Source: an uncultured Bacteroidota bacterium (GTDB taxonomy: Bacteria; Bacteroidota; Bacteroidia; Flavobacteriales_F; PHOS-HE28). Taken from it: a DNA stretch of 64,000 nt. Each line of letters starts with the position of its first letter. Positions within the stretch are counted from its first letter, which is position 1. Below the pieces are notes generated by a model. The model did no database searches and had not been told where the DNA came from. It was given only the letters and a program-made list of their open reading frames with translations. The DNA lies in assembly GCA_902826215.1 (NCBI GenBank), contig CADEDY010000005.1:1-64000 (forward strand). Reading direction: 5' to 3'. The position numbers and the translations under genes are program-made. Positions 8,912 through 46,127 of the stretch are shown piece by piece.

Positions 8912-10774
8912 ATGACCCAGACCTTGATCAAAAAGCCCGTTGAGGCACGCCAGAACGTCGTCATACTCTTTGCAGGGGATAGCGGTGATGGCATCCAGCT
9001 CACCGGCTCGCAGTTCACCGACACCAATGCGTTGTTCGGTAACGACGTCAGCACCTTCCCGAATTTCCCCGCGGAGATCCGGGCGCCACAGGGCACCTTG
9101 GCCGGTGTTAGCGGATATCAGTTGCACTTCGGAAGTGTCGAGATCTTCACGCCCGGTGACCTGTGCGACGTGCTCGTGGTGATGAACGCTGCGGCGCTCA
9201 AAGCCAACCTCATCAAATTGAAGAAGGGCGGCACCATCATCGCCAACACCGATGGTTTCGATAAGAAGAACCTGCGCTTGGCCGGATACATCGACGAAGC
9301 CGATCCGCTCACGGATGGCTCCTTGGTGAATTTCCACCTGCACAGCGTGGATGTGACCAAGCTGACGCGAACGGCTTTGGAGGGCATGACCCTTGGCATG
9401 AAGGAGAAGGACCGGTGCAAGAACATGTTCGTGCTCGGGTTCATCAACTGGATGTACAGCAGGGAGAATGCGCTCACCGAAGCCTTCCTCGATCGGAAGT
9501 TCGGAAAGAAGCCCGAGCTGTTGGAGGCGAACAGGAAGGCGCTGGTTGCTGGGTACAATTACGGCGAGACCAGCGAGACCTTCACCACCCGTTTCGAGGT
9601 GAAGGCCGCGCCGATGCCAAAAGGCACCTACCGCAGCATCACCGGCAATCAAGGTACCGCACTAGGGCTGGTCGCAGGTGCACAGAAGGCGAAGCTCGAC
9701 CTCTTCTACGGATCCTATCCGATCACACCGGCGAGCGACATCCTGCACGAGCTCAGCAAACACAAGAACTTCGGCGTGATCACCTTCCAGGCGGAAGATG
9801 AGATCGCCGCGATCAGCTCGGCGATCGGTGCGAGCTACGGCGGCGCATTGGGTATCACAGCGAGCAGCGGTCCTGGTATCGCGTTGAAGACCGAAGCCAT
9901 GGGCTTGGCCTTCATGCTCGAGATCCCGTTGGTGATCGTGAACGTGCAGCGCGGCGGACCCAGCACGGGTCTTCCAACAAAAACGGAACAGGCCGATCTC
10001 TGGCAGGCTGTTCACGGTCGCAACGGCGAAGCGCCGATACCGGTGATCGCTGCAAGCACACCCATCGATTGTTTCGACATGGCCTTCGAGGCCGTGCAAC
10101 TCGCGATCGAGCACATGACGCCGGTGATCCTGCTTACCGATGGTTACATCGCGAACGGATCCGAGCCCTGGCGCTTTCCGAATGCGAAGGATCTGCCGGA
10201 GATCAAGCCGCCGTACATCAAGGAGCCGAACGACGGCGAGAAGTTCCTTCCGTACCTGCGCGATGAGCGTGGAGTGCGTCCTTGGGCCTTGCCCGGTCAA
10301 GCAGGTCTGCAGCACCGCATCGGTGGGATCGAGAAACAGGACAGGACAGGGAATATCAGCTACGACCCGGAGAACCACGCCAAGATGGTGCATCTGCGCG
10401 CCGAGAAGGTGGCGCGGATCGCCGATCGGTACAAACCCATTCGGTTGGATAGCGGGCCAACAGAAGGCGAGGTGCTCGTGGTCGGTTGGGGTTCGACGTA
10501 CGGTGCCATTCGCACGGCGGCTTTGCAGTTGCAGGCTGAAGGAATGAGCGTGGCGCATGTACATGTTCGACACATGTTCCCATTCAACAAAGGACTTGGA
10601 CCACTGCTGAAGAAGTACAAGAAAGTGTTGGTGCCGGAAATGAACAGCGGGCAGCTGCGCCAGATGCTGCGTGCCGAGTACCTCGTCGATGCGCAAGGGT
10701 TGAACAAGATCCAAGGCATGCCATTCACGAGCGAAGAGATACGGGCGGGCATTCTCAATCTGTTGAAGTCATGA
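8912..10774 (+). CDS. korA: 2-oxoacid:ferredoxin oxidoreductase, fused gamma-alpha subunit
   Basis: A 620-residue subunit of the 2-oxoglutarate (or related 2-oxoacid):ferredoxin oxidoreductase, which makes acyl-CoA and CO2 while reducing ferredoxin. The N-terminal third is the gamma domain (FAGDSGDGIQLTGSQFTDT near residues 20-38). The alpha domain follows, with YPITPASDILHEL, the substrate-loop region ASSGPGIALKTEAMGLA and QRGGPSTGLPTKTEQADL, and the transketolase-like C-terminal part (VVGWGSTYGAIRTAA). This gamma-alpha fusion is normal for Bacteroidota KorA. The ATG at 8912 follows a strong -7 box; an upstream frame start at 8873 would include that box. It overlaps korB by four bases. Confidence 0.93.
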   Translation: MTQTLIKKPVEARQNVVILFAGDSGDGIQLTGSQFTDTNALFGNDVSTFPNFPAEIRAPQGTLAGVSGYQLHFGSVEIFTPGDLCDVLVVMNAAALKANLIKLKKGGTIIANTDGFDKKNLRLAGYIDEADPLTDGSLVNFHLHSVDVTKLTRTALEGMTLGMKEKDRCKNMFVLGFINWMYSRENALTEAFLDRKFGKKPELLEANRKALVAGYNYGETSETFTTRFEVKAAPMPKGTYRSITGNQGTALGLVAGAQKAKLDLFYGSYPITPASDILHELSKHKNFGVITFQAEDEIAAISSAIGASYGGALGITASSGPGIALKTEAMGLAFMLEIPLVIVNVQRGGPSTGLPTKTEQADLWQAVHGRNGEAPIPVIAASTPIDCFDMAFEAVQLAIEHMTPVILLTDGYIANGSEPWRFPNAKDLPEIKPPYIKEPNDGEKFLPYLRDERGVRPWALPGQAGLQHRIGGIEKQDRTGNISYDPENHAKMVHLRAEKVARIADRYKPIRLDSGPTEGEVLVVGWGSTYGAIRTAALQLQAEGMSVAHVHVRHMFPFNKGLGPLLKKYKKVLVPEMNSGQLRQMLRAEYLVDAQGLNKIQGMPFTSEEIRAGILNLLKS

Positions 10775-11799
10775 GCGAAGTGAACGGAACGGCGACGGTC
10801 GAGAAGATCGACTTTGGCAGCGATCAGGAAGTGCGCTGGTGTCCCGGCTGCGGCGATTACAGCATTCTGAAACAAGTACAGACCTTGTTGGAACAGAGCG
10901 GTAAGAAGAAGGAGGAAGTGGTCTTCATCAGCGGCATCGGCTGCTCGTCACGCTTCCCATATTACCTCGATACGTATGGTCTGCATGGCATCCATGGTCG
11001 CGCGCCGGCCATCGTGAGCGGTCTGCGCAGTGTGCGTCCGGAGTTGAGCGTGTGGATGATCACCGGTGATGGTGACGCGTTGAGTATCGGTGGCAATCAC
11101 ATCATCCACCTGCTGCGCCGCAACGTGGATGTGAATGTCCTCCTCTTCAACAACGAGATCTACGGACTCACCAAAGGGCAGTATTCACCCACCTCGCCAG
11201 AAGGTACCGTGACCCGCAGCACGCCGATGGGCAGCACGGATCATCCGTTCAATCCATTGGCTTTGGTGAAGGGAGCCGATGGCACCTTCATCGCCCGCAG
11301 TATGGATCGTGACCCCAAGCACATGCGTGAAGTGCTGGCCCGTGCCGATGTGCACCGCGGCACCAGCCTCGTCGAGATCTACCAGAACTGCAACGTCTTC
11401 AACGACGGGGCTTTCGAAGTGTTCACGGACAAAGGGTCTAAGCCGACGCACACCCTGTTCGTGGAGCACGGCAAGCCATTGACCTTCGCGGGGGGTACGA
11501 AGGGCATCTGCATCAAGGAGATGAAACCACACATCATCGACATCGGTCCTGAATTCTCCCCGGACGACTGCTGGATCCACGATGAGCGCGACAATTTCAA
11601 AGCCTCGATCCTCGTGCGCTTGTTCGATGACGCCAGTGTTGAAGGTGCGTTCCCACGTCCGTTCGGCGTGTTCTACGTGAACGACCGACCCACGCACGAA
11701 GCGAAGTTGCAGGCCCAAGTGAAGAAGGCCAAGGAGGTGAAAGGCCCCGGTGATCTCGATGCGCTGCTGAAAGGTGCGCATACGTGGACGATCGGGTGA
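10771..11799 (+). CDS. korB: 2-oxoacid:ferredoxin oxidoreductase, beta subunit
   Basis: A 342-residue thiamine-diphosphate-binding beta subunit that pairs with KorA. Near the N-terminus RWCPGCGDYS gives Cys24 and Cys27, and GIGCSSR adds a third cysteine; these are the usual cluster ligands of the small beta subunits. The ThDP/Mg site is visible as TGDGDALSIGGNH (about residues 92-104) and LLFNNEIYGLTKGQ. The gene overlaps korA by four bases and ends two bases before the convergent 872-residue membrane protein. No separate ferredoxin-type delta subunit is present in the window, as expected for the two-subunit Bacteroidota enzyme. Confidence 0.93.
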   Translation: MSEVNGTATVEKIDFGSDQEVRWCPGCGDYSILKQVQTLLEQSGKKKEEVVFISGIGCSSRFPYYLDTYGLHGIHGRAPAIVSGLRSVRPELSVWMITGDGDALSIGGNHIIHLLRRNVDVNVLLFNNEIYGLTKGQYSPTSPEGTVTRSTPMGSTDHPFNPLALVKGADGTFIARSMDRDPKHMREVLARADVHRGTSLVEIYQNCNVFNDGAFEVFTDKGSKPTHTLFVEHGKPLTFAGGTKGICIKEMKPHIIDIGPEFSPDDCWIHDERDNFKASILVRLFDDASVEGAFPRPFGVFYVNDRPTHEAKLQAQVKKAKEVKGPGDLDALLKGAHTWTIG

Positions 11800-11800
11800 T

Positions 11801-14419
11801 CTAGTTCAAACGAGACATCCGAGGAAGGAAAACTACCGGAACGGACATCGGAGCCTGAACTGGACTATCGTTCATCATGGCCGGTTTCCATTTGGGCATT
11901 TTTCCAACTACACGTTCGGCCTCTTCACGACAGCCACCCTCCGGTCCCGCTGTCGCACGAACATCGATGACCGACCCATCGACCGAGACCTGAAAATAGA
12001 CGATCACTGATCCTGTGAGCCCTTCCTTATCCACCGACTCGGGATTCTTCAAGTTGTCATATATGAACTGGCGCATGGCTTGGTCACCGCCTGGGAATGT
12101 TGGTGGTGCGTCAAGTTCATTCAGAATTCCAATGGGGACCTGACCGGATAGTGCTACGCGGGCGGACTCGACGGGAGAAGGATCGACCCTTTCCTTTATC
12201 GTCCGTTGGGATGAACAAGGGAATACGACCGGCTCCACCGCTTGACGTAGACGGATCTTGTCCATGTTGACCTTCTGCCGTGGCGCATCTTCCGCCGTGT
12301 ACGCCATGGCGTTCGAGGCATTCAGGAGGCCAGTTCCGCGAACCCGATCGTATCGCATCAGTTCAGAGGTGAGTTCTGCTTCCGTGATCGGTCGTAGGGA
12401 GGCCGTGAGCTGAGTTACGCCACTCAGGTTGCGCTGCTCATGGTACCAGGAGCGTCCGTCTTTCTGGCCAAGCACCACCAGGTCATAGTTGAACAACGCA
12501 TTCAGCATCTCTTCATAGCGGTTGCCCAGCCCACGTTGCATTCGCTGATAGCCGCTTGTGCCCTGTGGGATCAAGTACACACGGACTTCGCTGAAGGTTG
12601 GAAGGTCACTGATCGTGACGATGCACGGGTCGTATTGGACAGAGGCCCGCTTCGCATTTACGCCATCTGAGATAGTAGTAGTCCGCCGGGTACTTGCGGC
12701 CGAGAGTATTTGATCGATGTTCTTCCAGCCAAGAGTTCGTACCCGCGCATTGAAGACGGTTCGAGGAGGCGGTGGAAGGGCCGGCCGACGGTTCGCATTC
12801 ACGATCGGCGCATTGGTCCGTGCGACTGCGGTTCCTGCGCTTGTGGATGCCGCAGCGAGACCTGAAGTCGTGCTGGAAGGTTGGATCGTGTACCCGAGCT
12901 GGGAATAGACGCTGGCCAGATTCGCATCCGTTTCTTCACGCAACAACTGGTCACGGACAAGTCGTTCGCTCTCCAGGTCGATGCGTTGTCGTTGTTGAAG
13001 CTTGGTGTCCAACTCGCGCTGTCTGTTCCAATAGGCCTCGTGCGCGGACCTAGTGGCAGCAGCGTAGTTCCGACTCCATACAGCATAGAGTTCTTTGAGA
13101 CGTTCAGCGCTGCCTTCGGGAAGCTGCACACGGCCGTCATTCCGGTTGGCGAACGAAGTGAATTCAGCATGACCCATGGCCACGGCTTGTCGATCCAGGG
13201 TGCGGAGGTCTGCGTTCAGCCCACTCACGTACAGGTCGAGCAGCGCGTTGTCACAGCTGCGATGGATAGCTCGCATCCGCTCCTCGAATTCACGGGTAGC
13301 CAAATTCGTTCCGCTGAATCGATCGTTCCAGAAGGCTTTGACCTTTGTTGGAATGATGCCGCATTGTCGACTTTCGTTTGAACCATTCGTAGCCTTGGTT
13401 GCACGACTTCGGTTGCTGGAAGTTACTCGGTATTGGATCGAGTCCGCTGGTAAGTACTCCTGCTCAACAGCCCTAGTCGGTTCGATATCACGCGCGATGG
13501 TCTCGACGGAAAGCTCCTGCTCTTGACAGGTCATGGCGAAGTACAAGCTGTCCTTGAAGCTCTTGGACGAAACGTCTTGACCGAGTTCCTTCAGTTTGGC
13601 TTCGTAGCCCGGCGGATAGAAATTCAACGTGGCCATATCGATCGGCACGAGGGTTCGCGGCAATTCGACCGGGTCTTGCCAATCGATGATGTCTTCAGCG
13701 CCCACCTTGCCGTCGTAGAGCTTCATCCCTTGCTTCACGCCATCCGCGGGAATGAGCACATTCACGCTCTTGTTCGGAGCGATCGTCACCGGCTTACCAT
13801 TGGTCGAAGCATCCAAGTAGAACATGCCTCCGGTTTCCAGTAGTGTATCGCCGCTCATGGTGCTCAATCCGGCCTGCATGATCGTTGCTGCATCGAATGC
13901 TTCGATCATGGTGACCTGCACCGGGGACTTCACTTCGGCACCGTCCTGACCGATGAACACGCCACGGGGTATGTCCATCACAACGCCATTCGGTGTGACC
14001 ATAGAGGTGTCCCGCCCAGGGTCGATGGTCATCATCAAAGGAGCGATCCCAATGTTCGGGGTGTCACTTGAAACTTCGGATGGCAACTCGTCGAGGAACT
14101 CTTCAGCCTCCTGTTCTGAATGTGTGAATGTTGGCCTCTCCATGTATTGCAGGCCGATCAGTAGGAGGATCAACCCAAGTGCACCTCCTCCAAGTCCCGG
14201 AGCCCATTTTCCCCATTTGAATCTTTGATAGGCGTGCTCCACAGATGTCCGCAGCGCAGTGCGTTCCAATCCGCGCATCAGCGCGCGCTGATCCTCCACC
14301 AGATCGCGCAACGCGCTGTTGTCACGCATCCGTTCTTCGAACGCGGCTCGGTCTTCCACATTCATTTCGCCGCGCACGTAGCGGTCGGCGAGTTCCATTC
14401 CTTTCAGTTCATCACGCAT
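11801..14419 (-). CDS. Anti-sigma-factor-like membrane protein with C-terminal TonB domain
   Basis: An 872-residue single-pass membrane protein coded three bases after an ECF sigma factor gene. Residues 1-60 (ELADRYVRGEMNVEDRAAFEERM and on) read like the cytoplasmic domain of an anti-sigma factor. A transmembrane helix follows at about 73-93 (GLGGGALGLILLLIGLQYM). The periplasmic part begins with a beta domain (about 125-215; GVVMDIPRGVFIGQDG ... TGGMFYLDA) of a kind common in Bacteroidota envelope proteins, continues with a long low-complexity and coiled-coil region (about 470-520), and ends with a TonB_C domain (about 775-868; FPGGDQAMRQFIYDNLKNPE, then GSVIVYFQVSVDGSV, then MPKWKPAMM). The combination suggests a signalling protein linking outer-membrane transport to sigma release, but this is inference. 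It could alternatively be a structural energy transducer. Confidence 0.72.
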   Translation of the reverse strand: MRDELKGMELADRYVRGEMNVEDRAAFEERMRDNSALRDLVEDQRALMRGLERTALRTSVEHAYQRFKWGKWAPGLGGGALGLILLLIGLQYMERPTFTHSEQEAEEFLDELPSEVSSDTPNIGIAPLMMTIDPGRDTSMVTPNGVVMDIPRGVFIGQDGAEVKSPVQVTMIEAFDAATIMQAGLSTMSGDTLLETGGMFYLDASTNGKPVTIAPNKSVNVLIPADGVKQGMKLYDGKVGAEDIIDWQDPVELPRTLVPIDMATLNFYPPGYEAKLKELGQDVSSKSFKDSLYFAMTCQEQELSVETIARDIEPTRAVEQEYLPADSIQYRVTSSNRSRATKATNGSNESRQCGIIPTKVKAFWNDRFSGTNLATREFEERMRAIHRSCDNALLDLYVSGLNADLRTLDRQAVAMGHAEFTSFANRNDGRVQLPEGSAERLKELYAVWSRNYAAATRSAHEAYWNRQRELDTKLQQRQRIDLESERLVRDQLLREETDANLASVYSQLGYTIQPSSTTSGLAAASTSAGTAVARTNAPIVNANRRPALPPPPRTVFNARVRTLGWKNIDQILSAASTRRTTTISDGVNAKRASVQYDPCIVTISDLPTFSEVRVYLIPQGTSGYQRMQRGLGNRYEEMLNALFNYDLVVLGQKDGRSWYHEQRNLSGVTQLTASLRPITEAELTSELMRYDRVRGTGLLNASNAMAYTAEDAPRQKVNMDKIRLRQAVEPVVFPCSSQRTIKERVDPSPVESARVALSGQVPIGILNELDAPPTFPGGDQAMRQFIYDNLKNPESVDKEGLTGSVIVYFQVSVDGSVIDVRATAGPEGGCREEAERVVGKMPKWKPAMMNDSPVQAPMSVPVVFLPRMSRLN

Positions 14420-14422
14420 CGC

Positions 14423-14989
14423 TCAGGGGTGTTGAGGTTGAGCGACGGATCCCTTCGCTTGCAGTTCACGGTAGCGCTTGCGGGCTTCTTCCAGGCACTT
14501 GTACTTGCGCGTTTTCGCCGCACCCTCACCAGCCAGCCCGATGGCCTTGGCGATGGTGAGCAGCGGCTCCTTCAGCAGGTAGAAGCGCTTGAGAAGATCG
14601 AGGCAGGTGCTGCCCAGCGAACGCAAAGCGCGTTCGGCCAAGGCGAACCGGCCTTCTTCAGCAAGCAGTCCGGTGAGGTCGGTGGGCTCGTCGGGCGCTG
14701 CTTCCAACTCTTGCGTGAAGCGACCCCTTCTCCGCAACTCCTCCTGCCAGCGGTTGCGGCAAATGGCGAAAAGATAGGTGCCGATGGAGCACGTGAGGGT
14801 GAAGTCAGCGTCCTTGGCCTTGCCGAAGAGAATGATCAACGCGTCCTGGAACAGGTCCTTGGCATCGGCACGTGTGCCGTGGTTGTGACGCACCAACCGT
14901 TCCACTTTGGGCAGATGGGCGTAGAGCTTGACCAGAGCCTTGTGCTCGCGGCCTGTTCGCAGGTGGGTGATGATCTCTTGGTCCGACAT
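14423..14989 (-). CDS. ECF-type RNA polymerase sigma factor
   Basis: A 188-residue sigma-70 family protein of the extracytoplasmic-function class. Region 2 is visible as DLFQDALIILFGKAKD with the preceding LVRHNHGTRADAK, and region 4 as a helix-turn-helix near LKRFYLLKEPLLTIAKAIGLAGEGAAKTRKYKCLEEA (about residues 133-170, read in parts). Region 3 is absent, as expected. The downstream gene, only three bases away, codes for a membrane protein with an anti-sigma-like cytoplasmic domain, so the pair probably forms a signal-transduction unit. No promoter of its own could be assigned with confidence. Confidence 0.85.
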   Translation of the reverse strand: MSDQEIITHLRTGREHKALVKLYAHLPKVERLVRHNHGTRADAKDLFQDALIILFGKAKDADFTLTCSIGTYLFAICRNRWQEELRRRGRFTQELEAAPDEPTDLTGLLAEEGRFALAERALRSLGSTCLDLLKRFYLLKEPLLTIAKAIGLAGEGAAKTRKYKCLEEARKRYRELQAKGSVAQPQHP

Positions 14990-15170
14990 CGGGATCCGTC
15001 TTTACCCTTTATGCAGAAAGAACGGAAAGGTGACCCAAGAAAAATACTACCGCAATTGGCTTAGGTGAACTATCATCAATTCGCTTCTCCCCGTGCTGCT
15101 GGCATGGCTTCGCTTCACAAGTGCACCGGCGTTCTACGGAGGGCGCAGTCCTGCGAATATTCAACGACCT

Positions 15171-16034
15171 TTATAATAGGTAGCCGAACTGCAACCCTCC
15201 ACTCACACAAAGAGGAGAATTCCGACCAAAGAAGGCATGGGAATAGGCATACTCCTTAAATGCGTAATAGCGGTCGTTGGAACCGGTTGGATGTCCGTTC
15301 TGCCATTCTATTCCATAGCCAAGACCGCCATGGATATCGAAAGTGACACGTTCGCCGATCAGGAGCTGGGTGCCCACAACAAGGTTCAGTGCAGCACTGC
15401 TGAAAAAGGTCTTCTTCACCAACGGTGGTCCGTAGCTTGGATAGGATGAGTAGTAGTATTGATCGTGCTCGGCCCAGTAGCTGAACATCAATTCCGGCTC
15501 CAAGTACCAACCCGCAAGCGGGTGATCGGCACGAGCGCTTCGGGAATGGCGCGAGGAATTCGGTAGGATGAATTTCGATCCTGTTCTCGCAACGAATCCT
15601 TTGTTCAGCTCACCCTGCGAATTGCCATCCCGGTCCCAGATGCCGATGTAGCCCAAGCCGCATTTCAAGGACATTCTTCGACCGATCAACCGTTCGTACG
15701 AGATCGTGAAATGGTCCAAGGCCGGGGCGAGCACATCCAGCATGATCTGTTGCTTTCGTGCCATGAACGCCTCGGTCGCTGGTATGTCCGTGGAAGCATC
15801 ATTGAAGATGAACTGCTGCCCACCGCTCAAACGAATACGCGCGAGGTCCCGCTTCTCAGCGACGATGAGTACCGAATTGCCGCCTGAACTCGTCCTGTAT
15901 TTCACTAGATCGACTCCGATCTCGTCCACGTAACCAATGATGCGTTCACCGTTCACATACACAAGTGTGTCCTGCGCTCTCGTTCGACCGAAGAAGATCA
16001 GTAGAAGCATTGCAACTAGGATCCGGTAAGTCAT
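15171..16034 (-). CDS. Hypothetical exported protein, probable outer-membrane barrel
   Basis: A 287-residue protein with a signal peptide at residues 1-20 (MTYRILVAMLLLIFFGRTRA|Q). The first part of the mature chain (LVYVNGERIIGYVDEIGVD) resembles a small SH3-like beta domain often found at the start of Bacteroidota proteins of unknown function. The second part has alternating polar and aromatic residues (GWYLEPELMFSYW, FFSSAALNLVVGTQLLIG, FDIHGGLGYGIEW) and ends in a hydrophobic strand, FGYLL, as in outer-membrane barrels. No function can be given. It lies between the sigma factor locus and nadE on the same strand. Confidence 0.65.
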   Translation of the reverse strand: MTYRILVAMLLLIFFGRTRAQDTLVYVNGERIIGYVDEIGVDLVKYRTSSGGNSVLIVAEKRDLARIRLSGGQQFIFNDASTDIPATEAFMARKQQIMLDVLAPALDHFTISYERLIGRRMSLKCGLGYIGIWDRDGNSQGELNKGFVARTGSKFILPNSSRHSRSARADHPLAGWYLEPELMFSYWAEHDQYYYSSYPSYGPPLVKKTFFSSAALNLVVGTQLLIGERVTFDIHGGLGYGIEWQNGHPTGSNDRYYAFKEYAYSHAFFGRNSPLCVSGGLQFGYLL

Positions 16035-43874: not shown

Positions 43875-46127
43875 ATGCGGTTCGCGCACCTCGTTATCGC
43901 CGTTCTTTTCGTGGGTGGTGGTTTGCGAGCGCAGCTTTCCTTTTCGGTCGTGGACAGTGCTGGGTCCGGTGTGCCCTATGCGCATGTGGCTTGGCAACCG
44001 ATCGAGGGAGCTGGTGGTCTGATCGTGGCCGATGCCTTAGGTCAGGGTGTCATTCCGGTTGATGCAACGAGCACTTCCAAAGGCCTTGCCGTTCGGGTCT
44101 CCTTCGTAGGTTTCGAAAGCGTCATCGATACGGTCTACGATTCCGATCCGGTCCGGTTCATCTTGAAGCCTTCTTCCCAACAACTTCGGGAGGTGGTGAT
44201 CACCGGTCAGTATGCGCCGTCTTCTCCGGAAAAGGCCGTGCAACGCGTGCGAATCATCGATAGCAAACAGTTCCAGCGCATGGCCGCCAACAATCTGGGC
44301 GATGCGTTGCGCAACGAATTGAACATCCAACTTTCCCAGGACAATATCCTTGGTACATCGCTTTCCATGCAAGGCCTCGGTGGGCAGAATGTCAAGCTCT
44401 TGATCGATGGTGTCCCGGTCATCGGTCGCCAAGATGGAAACATCGACCTGGCACAGATCGACCTCACGAGCATTGAACGCGCCGAGATCATTCAAGGACC
44501 GCTCAGCGTGAACTATGGTACCAATGCACTTGCGGGCACCATCAACCTGATCACCCGGAAAGGTGCGGGTCAGCCAGCGACCCTGAAAGCCGTGGCCTAC
44601 GCCGAGCATATCGGGCGTTTGAACACAGCGGTCACTGCTACCCGACACTGGCGGAACAACGACATGGTGATCACCGCTGGTCGGAATTTCTTCGATGGAT
44701 GGGATCCGCGCGAAAAGGGGCTTCCGACGTATGTGCCGGAGCTTGCCGACAGTTCACGTTTCCAGCAGTGGAAGCCACGCGAACAGTACTTCGGAAGGCT
44801 GAACTACCGCTGGACGAAGGACCGCTGGAGCCTTGGCTACAAGGGTGAAGGCATGCACGATCGGATCACGAACCGAGGACGCCCACGTCAACCATATAAT
44901 GAAACCGCCTTCGACGAAGTGTATACGACCATCCGGTTCGATAACGCGGTGTTCGCTGAAGGCAAGTTCGCCAAGGGCCGACGCCTGAACGCCTTGGCCG
45001 CTTACAACAAGTATTCGCGGAGCCGCAACACGTGGTTCCGAGATCTCACCACCTTGGATGGCTTGATGGTGGGTGCGGCAGGTGCGCAGGATACTTCGCG
45101 ATTCGCACTCGCCAACGTGCGTGCTGTATTCTCCAGCGCCCCGGACAGCGTTCGGTTGAGCTATGAACTTGGCATCGATCTGAACCACGAAGCTGGTCGC
45201 GGCCAACGCATCGGTGATGGGGAGGAGAGCATCGGCGACTATGCCCTTTTCGCCAGTGCGGAGTACCGCCCGACAGGAACTGTTGTCGTTCGTCCTGGAT
45301 TGCGTTACGCGTACAATACCCGCTATGGCGCGCCAGTGATCCCTTCGCTGAACGTGCGCTGGCAATTGAACCAAGGCTTCACCGTCCGCGCTTCCTATGC
45401 GCAAGGCTTCCGCGCTCCTTCGTTGAAGGAGCTCTACTTCTACTTCGTGGATGTGAACCACGACATCGTTGGGAATGAGGACCTCGCTGCTGAGCGATCA
45501 CATTCCTTGAATGCAGCACTGTCCTATCGGCATGCGAAAGAGAAGGGCGTGTACACCAGTGAACTCTCCATGTTCTACAACACGGTGAACGACCTGATCT
45601 CCCTTGCACAGCTTTCCGGGACCAGCTACACGTACATCAATGTGGGGCAATACACAACGCTGGGAGGAAGCATCGGTGCTGGCTGGGACAACGGACACTG
45701 GATGATCTCCACCGGGGCAGCAATAACAGGCCGGCACGATGATCTGGCGGTTGCCAATGACGAGCCGTATCTCTTTTCACCCGAAGTGCGGGCTTCGGTC
45801 ACCAAGCAGTGGTTGCGCAAAGGATGGAGCGGAACGGTGTTCTGGAAGTGGCAAGGACGCGTGAGCAATTACGTGACGACCAACAACATCGATGTGCAAC
45901 GTGCCTTCATAGCACCGTATTCCATGGCCGATGCCTCGTTGACGAAGCGCATATGGAAGAACAAACTGGGGATCACGGCGGGCTGCAAGGACCTGTTCAA
46001 TGTTCGCAATGTCAATGCATCCTTGGCTGGTGGTGCACATACCGCAGGTGGGAACAGTGTTCCGATGACCACTGGACGGACCGCGTTCCTTCGCATCGAA
46101 CTTGAACTCCAACGCGCCGCTCGATGA
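43875..46127 (+). CDS. TonB-dependent outer-membrane receptor (HmuR/haem-type)
   Basis: A 750-residue receptor with signal peptide (MRFAHLVIAVLFVGGGLRA|Q), an N-terminal carboxypeptidase-like beta domain (to about residue 100), a plug domain (near 125-230; RIIDSKQFQRMAANNLGDAL, LLIDGVPVIGRQDGNIDL) and a 22-strand-type barrel. The barrel includes GFRAPSLKELYFYF followed by NEDLAAERSHS, the FRAP and NxxL motif pair characteristic of haem receptors such as HmuR, although cobalamin and siderophore receptors can share it. The C-terminus ends in an aromatic-rich strand (AFLRIELELQ). The ATG at 43875 fits the signal peptide; a GTG at 43830 is possible. It overlaps the following lipoprotein gene by four bases. 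Confidence 0.88.
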   Translation: MRFAHLVIAVLFVGGGLRAQLSFSVVDSAGSGVPYAHVAWQPIEGAGGLIVADALGQGVIPVDATSTSKGLAVRVSFVGFESVIDTVYDSDPVRFILKPSSQQLREVVITGQYAPSSPEKAVQRVRIIDSKQFQRMAANNLGDALRNELNIQLSQDNILGTSLSMQGLGGQNVKLLIDGVPVIGRQDGNIDLAQIDLTSIERAEIIQGPLSVNYGTNALAGTINLITRKGAGQPATLKAVAYAEHIGRLNTAVTATRHWRNNDMVITAGRNFFDGWDPREKGLPTYVPELADSSRFQQWKPREQYFGRLNYRWTKDRWSLGYKGEGMHDRITNRGRPRQPYNETAFDEVYTTIRFDNAVFAEGKFAKGRRLNALAAYNKYSRSRNTWFRDLTTLDGLMVGAAGAQDTSRFALANVRAVFSSAPDSVRLSYELGIDLNHEAGRGQRIGDGEESIGDYALFASAEYRPTGTVVVRPGLRYAYNTRYGAPVIPSLNVRWQLNQGFTVRASYAQGFRAPSLKELYFYFVDVNHDIVGNEDLAAERSHSLNAALSYRHAKEKGVYTSELSMFYNTVNDLISLAQLSGTSYTYINVGQYTTLGGSIGAGWDNGHWMISTGAAITGRHDDLAVANDEPYLFSPEVRASVTKQWLRKGWSGTVFWKWQGRVSNYVTTNNIDVQRAFIAPYSMADASLTKRIWKNKLGITAGCKDLFNVRNVNASLAGGAHTAGGNSVPMTTGRTAFLRIELELQRAAR

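Follow-up and report, generated by a model that had tools for sequence, protein, structure and literature searches.

Dma1-3 of Bacteroides thetaiotaomicron, with their ECF21-type Das sigma factors (PMC13088901), constitute the nearest described system to the gene pair analyzed here, which encodes a predicted extracytoplasmic function (ECF) sigma factor of 188 amino acids (aa) and a predicted anti-sigma factor of 872 aa with a TonB-type C-terminal end. The pair is located on the minus strand of a stretch of 64,000 nucleotides (nt) from an uncultured Bacteroidota bacterium (assembly GCA_902826215.1, contig CADEDY010000005.1, positions 1 to 64,000; hereafter the window). Both systems have a sigma gene beside a large anti-sigma gene, a domain for sigma binding at the N-terminus (predicted in the present protein), one membrane helix and a long periplasmic part that extends in the direction of the outer membrane, and both are linked to the envelope. 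In Dma, the periplasmic part reaches the outer membrane and ends as a β-barrel behind a disordered tether (PMC13088901), whereas the periplasmic part of the window's protein is folded, with ZU5-like, helical and Ig-like domains followed by a TonB fold. Because a C-terminal barrel was not found, the protein was not classed as a Dma; by analogy, the system may nevertheless work like one.

The N-terminal fold and the operon with an ECF sigma gene are shared with anti-sigma factors of the RskA, RslA and RsiW type, from which the 872-aa protein differs by a far larger, modular periplasmic part and by an N-terminal domain in which no zinc ligands were seen. An ECF sigma factor, a membrane anti-sigma factor and a possible input from the outer membrane are in common with FecIR-FecA. 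FecR-type cell-surface signalling was considered and rejected, since no Pfam FecR match was obtained in the 872-aa protein and no receptor gene is adjacent. ECF control reaching type IX secretion system (T9SS) genes such as gldN is also known from PorXY-SigP and the SM6 promoters of Flavobacterium psychrophilum (PMC7712824, PMC9723704). Unlike SM6, which was described with a CGT box, the element found here is GGTnACCTTTy-N11-CATnAA, and its main targets are ZU5-like proteins. Neither an anti-sigma/TonB_C fusion nor a ZU5-like anti-sigma sensor was found in the literature searched, the coverage of which was incomplete, so that a prior description is possible. We consider it likely that the locus encodes an autoregulated sigma system for envelope homeostasis whose periplasmic sensor is made up of several domains, with the TonB fold as an optional one. 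The findings below on the gene pair and its domain order, on folds and synteny, on the exchange of modules and on the promoter element with its targets are all computational.

The sigma factor and the predicted N-terminal anti-sigma domain

The sigma gene (14423..14989, minus strand) is followed, after a gap of 3 nt, by the gene for the 872-aa protein (11801..14419, minus strand), an open reading frame with orthologues at the same locus. This agrees in order and coordinates with the initial annotation, which had been made from the sequence and had described an ECF sigma factor followed by a giant anti-sigma-like protein; "giant" holds as a relative term, the homologues ranging from approximately 220 to 960 aa. 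The sigma protein matched Pfam Sigma70_r2 (PF04542; E = 8.7e-10), and TIGR02937 matched its residues 19-171 with E = 8e-11 at 41.8 bits, slightly below the cut-off of 42.9. A region-4-like stretch, AKTRKYKCLEEAR, is kept among the orthologues, whose identities are 33-85%. The 188-aa protein thus has sigma-70 regions 2 and 4 without the other regions, and was assigned as a predicted ECF sigma factor.

Residues 1-70 of the 872-aa protein (14210..14419, minus strand) form a predicted anti-sigma domain of three helices. An AlphaFold model of the N-terminus built on 41 homologues placed helices at residues 2-16, 21-33 and 35-93, with a predicted local distance difference test score (pLDDT) above 90 across residues 11-50. 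When this model was compared with 350,542 PDB chains by Foldseek, RskA (4nqw_B, with SigK) and RslA (3hug, with part of SigL) came out on top, and RsiW (5wuq, bound to SigW) was at rank 15. The VIA-align Z scores were 6.5 for RslA, 5.8 for RsiW and 5.6 for RskA, and the profile matches (RslA, E = 0.039; RsrA, E = 0.6) agreed with the fold result. Neither Pfam nor NCBIfam gave a name to the N-terminus, and the zf-HC2 matches in relatives were weak (E = 0.008-0.075). Of the profile searches that the initial annotation had suggested for the two ends of the protein, that of the C-terminus passed its cut-off (see below), while that of the N-terminus gave no Pfam match. Despite the weak single scores, the specificity of the modelled fold for ECF anti-sigma factors is striking.

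A class-wide profile survey found the anti-sigma domain in 79 of 395 genomes. Directly upstream of the anti-sigma gene, an ECF sigma gene was found at 38 of the 40 class-level loci examined; the remaining two start at a contig edge. A single membrane helix at approximately residues 72-92 (14144..14206, minus strand) was indicated by hydropathy and is part of a continuous helix in both models. The proposal of an anti-sigma-like N-terminus, one membrane helix and a long periplasmic part was borne out by these analyses. By its modelled fold, its operon and its one helix, the 872-aa protein is a predicted membrane-bound ECF anti-sigma factor, which would bind and inhibit the sigma factor.

The promoter element and the predicted regulon

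A predicted autoregulatory ECF promoter, GGTCACCTTTC-N11-CATAAA, was located at 15008..15035 on the minus strand, approximately 18 nt before the start codon of the sigma gene. Its consensus, GGTnACCTTTy-N11-CATnAA, is the sole alignable part of the sigma upstream regions, both in the genus and in far relatives, and was found with at most two mismatches at 26 of 39 class-level sigma loci, compared with none of 3,900 shuffles. Searches of 45 genus genomes gave 25 exact sites, with none for the reversed control; all of the exact sites were in genomes that carry the sigma gene, in one case in truncated form. In the 395 class genomes there were 59 sites against 13 for the control, a 4-5-fold higher frequency, and their occurrence was associated with that of the anti-sigma domain (Fisher, p = 8.8e-15). 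Genome sites with two mismatches were dropped as chance matches, the control being equally frequent.

Exactly two exact sites are present in the genome of the window, one at this operon and the other on another contig (C15:45794), 36 nt before the gene of a 587-aa lipoprotein (L262:3859-5622; G000:C15:45858-47621). This lipoprotein is similar to the ZU5-like domain of the anti-sigma protein (BLASTP, E = 3e-13; profile, E = 2.5e-22). Of the 25 genus sites, 15 precede the sigma gene itself. The other 10 precede genes for OmpA-containing ZU5-like proteins (six), a ZU5-like lipoprotein (one), GldN (two) and a PorE-like protein (one), so that seven of these 10 targets share the ZU5-like domain of the anti-sigma protein. 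The GldN targets scored above the cut-off of TIGR03523. Beyond the genus, the genes behind the site included those of a ZU5-like lipoprotein and of GldN (G265:C399), among other targets, and some of these sites are probably due to chance. No receptor gene is among the targets of the predicted regulon.

The two GldN targets of the genus (L313:8666-9532 and L314:9220-10062) are each the third paralogue of their genome and belong to the gld gene cluster, with the promoter copy immediately before them.

Exchange of modules at one syntenic locus

The sigma/anti-sigma pair adjoins convergent korB/korA in the genus and is downstream of nadE in most genomes. A comparison of 18 pairs from 16 genus genomes revealed that, at one and the same locus, the TonB end is present in 10 pairs and missing in eight, close relatives among them. 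Four combinations were distinguished: a long form with the TonB end (the window, G018, G066 and G060); a long form without it (G029, G003, G061 and the distal copies of G021 and G064); a short form consisting of the anti-sigma domain, helix, linker and TonB end (G007, G015, G020, G034 and the proximal copies of G021 and G064); and a short form without it (G009, G062 and G059, of which G059 has a CHU_C/FlgD-Ig-like end). On a tree of sigma factors and anti-sigma domains with 40 rows, a minimum of seven changes was counted for the TonB end and of eight for the large domain.

In more distant anti-sigma relatives a trypsin-like domain replaces the sensor, and the modules found behind the one anti-sigma domain are ZU5-like, TonB-fold, cytochrome c, CHU_C or trypsin. 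The same domain order beside an ECF sigma gene, for which the initial annotation had proposed a survey of Bacteroidota, recurs in other Bacteroidota, namely Kordia (L110 and L111) and several uncultured families; TonB-tailed forms were likewise found at L134, L138, L154, L233, L235, L239 and L242. Based on the module exchange and this recurrence across loci, the TonB end was judged to be real, recurrent and dispensable.

Several further arrangements were observed. A cytochrome c-like insert (CxxCH) occurs in the periplasmic sensor of L105/L185, L182, L044, L115, L220, L253 and L254, and its motif suggests a redox-sensing variant of the sensor. At L043 and L109/L187 there are tandem pairs, in which the proximal anti-sigma protein has the TonB end only and the distal one the large ZU5-like domain only. 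In G044 (L047:4645-8097), the sigma gene is flanked by a gene for a large ZU5-like protein without an anti-sigma domain and by a separate anti-sigma gene. At L106:6001-6468 the sigma gene is truncated and the anti-sigma gene lost, with the promoter kept and korB adjacent; from its sequence, this is a decaying copy of the locus.

Periplasmic domains and the possibility of self-cleavage

A full-length model from 22 homologues had a mean pLDDT of 72. No match below E = 0.001 was obtained by Foldseek with the full-length model, and the domain-level fold calls rest on VIA-align. When the complete protein was searched against PDB sequences, TonB2 alone was returned (E = 0.7). The main part of a ZU5/GAIN-like β-sandwich was assigned to residues 126-300 (13520..14044, minus strand) by VIA-align and homologue conservation. 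The Z scores of the sandwich were 9.4 for ankyrin ZU5 (3ud1 and 3kbu), 8.5 for the GAIN domain of BAI3, 7.7 for NLRP1 and 7.2 for CARD8 (FIIND). No Pfam ZU5 match is present in the 872-aa protein, and the likeness to ZU5 is at the level of the fold only. The ZU5 superposition spans residues 126..569 and takes in the last strand of the sandwich, residues 554-569 (12713..12760, minus strand), which carries a G-W-x-N-x-D motif in the homologue alignment; G564, W565, N567 and D569 are invariant among the 22 homologues. Two further domains were recognized: a helical region at residues 355-510 (12890..13357, minus strand; helices 357-507 in the model), which is kept across the long forms, and an Ig/transthyretin-like domain at residues 594-678 (12386..12640, minus strand; VIA-align Z 6-8).

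Among the members of the ZU5 superfamily are autopeptidases, found in bacterial toxins and surface proteins and with CxH as the active-site motif (PMC3482391), and this toxin paper was the only one found when the literature was searched for ZU5 combined with anti-sigma. A ZU5 fold outside the membrane is common to those proteins and to the present one, in which, unlike in the former, the fold belongs both to an anti-sigma sensor and to predicted regulon products, and no CxH was seen. Self-cleavage of the periplasmic ZU5/GAIN part could set off cleavage of the anti-sigma protein by regulated intramembrane proteolysis, which would be a version of the envelope-homeostasis system proposed above. 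The fold itself (Z 7-9) belongs to a kind that self-cleaves in other proteins, the superfamily includes autopeptidases, and the trypsin-like domain in place of the sensor in the more distant relatives also favors a proteolytic step. However, the last strand carries GWxNxD as its invariant motif, and neither CxH nor H-x-S/T was seen there. Activation in this manner is regarded as unlikely.

The TonB-type C-terminal end

A TonB C-terminal-domain fold was assigned to residues 770-868 (11816..12112, minus strand). Pfam TonB_C (PF03544) matched residues 793-864 with E = 4.3e-10 and 40.3 bits, well above the cut-off of 24.6, and the VIA-align Z scores were 8.4 for the TonB of the FoxA complex (6i97_D), 8.4 for 5lw8 and 6.9 for 2gsk_B. 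The initial annotation was thus right in recognizing a TonB C-terminal domain. It had gone on to suggest a possible one-protein version of FecR plus TonB, in which receptor engagement is read as sigma release; spelled out, the TonB fold would engage the TonB box of a receptor encoded at a distance, and the pull would free the sigma factor. The absence of an adjacent receptor gene, which it had also pointed out, was confirmed, the nearest Plug domains being at window positions 44229 and 48904, approximately 30 kb off.

Some observations are consistent with the receptor contact. The fold resembles that of receptor-bound TonB (6i97_D and 2gsk_B), 20 Plug-domain receptors are encoded in the genome, and the short forms have the domain order of a TonB. 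In these short forms, the identity of the TonB end is 0.31-0.69 compared with 0.14-0.35 for the linker; the codon-position ratios are near saturation and support only this higher conservation of the TonB end over the linker. Since it is more conserved than the linker, the TonB end of the short forms is probably functional. In the long forms, the TonB end is the fastest-changing and least conserved part.

However, an energised TonB end that reads a receptor is difficult to reconcile with its absence from eight of the 18 same-locus pairs and its at least seven changes on the tree. Furthermore, an AFEW-type motif, which is present in the membrane helix of most classic TonBs of relatives, was absent from the fusion in a sequence test, and no receptor is in the predicted regulon. 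Most TonB_C proteins of this genome have signal peptide-like starts by inspection; L002, in contrast, is a classic TonB, and L003 resembles a BlaR1-type protein with an M56-like part. Because most of them appear secreted, a TonB_C annotation here does not imply a TonB, and the domain alone does not argue for energised receptor contact. The replacement of FecR plus TonB by one protein is thus considered quite improbable, although the TonB fold may bind a receptor. That the protein is a TonB-type energy transducer, with a superficial likeness to anti-sigma factors and the sigma gene as a chance neighbor, agrees with the real TonB fold and the one N-proximal membrane helix, but is highly implausible given that the ECF sigma pairing is near universal and the TonB end is not, that the N-terminal fold matches anti-sigma factors and that the TonB membrane motif is absent. 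The TonB fold is best read as a contact module that the sensor can have or lack.

A lipoprotein at L057:4427-5851 joins ZU5-like and TonB_C domains without an anti-sigma domain.

Neighboring genes and other loci

On the same strand, 5' of the sigma gene, a gene for a 287-aa protein with a signal peptide-like start was found (15171..16034, minus strand). Its orthologues in relatives are 43-58% identical in loci L053, L104 and L109 and are sigma-adjacent in some relatives; in three relatives, too, the gene is upstream of sigma. A Pfam search with the 287-aa protein gave no match, and its product is a predicted envelope protein. On the other side, korB, encoding a 2-oxoacid:acceptor oxidoreductase beta subunit (10771..11799, plus strand), is convergent and serves as a synteny anchor outside the system. 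The single FecR of this genome is encoded at C7:106146, with a Plug receptor 3 kb from it. Outside the window, the same genome has a second ECF sigma gene with a 240-aa anti-sigma-like partner that ends in TPR-like repeats (G000:C5:71743-73070; L178:7744-9071).

Discussion

In the envelope-homeostasis system that we propose, we infer sigma binding, a signal, a release step, feedback and a partner of the TonB fold as follows. The N-terminal helical domain would hold the sigma factor at the inner membrane, and the periplasmic ZU5-like, helical and Ig-like parts, together with the TonB fold, would read the state of the outer membrane, of the peptidoglycan or of proteins anchored there. A signal would lead to release of the sigma factor, which would use the GGTnACCTTTy-N11-CATnAA promoters for transcription of its own operon and of a very small set of envelope genes. 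Since the ZU5-like domain is common to a regulon product and the sensor, this product is likely to compete for whatever the sensor detects, or to restore it, and a feedback loop would result. The TonB fold would be an optional, additional contact module at the sensor's outer end rather than an energised TonB. PorE has been proposed to tether the outer membrane to peptidoglycan, possibly with a TonB-like partner (PMC12204202). Contact of the TonB fold with the outer membrane or with the OmpA/PorE-type tethers of the regulon is possible, although this is speculation. A more specific form of the loop, in which the anchored ZU5-like product is made until the sensor is outcompeted or satisfied, the TonB fold clasps that partner, and the loss of contact between the inner and outer membranes is the signal, is doubtful.

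Several points weigh against the proposed system. The fold match of the N-terminus to anti-sigma factors is weak when taken singly (best Foldseek E = 0.53), and a Z score near 6 in a helical bundle can reflect a common arrangement. The promoter was deduced from sequence conservation, and the genome of the window has one predicted target besides the operon itself. The envelope link of this target is predicted from its lipoprotein signal and the shared domain, and the GldN and PorE targets come from relatives.

Many ECF sigma factors of Bacteroidota have unexplained signals. The promoter computed here yields a short regulon (25 exact sites compared with none for the control), the predicted targets of which point toward the biology of the envelope and the T9SS. 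The TonB_C domains of this group are a reminder that the annotation should not be taken to mean a TonB. The sensor modules exchanged behind a conserved anti-sigma domain constitute a natural swap experiment on what each module senses.

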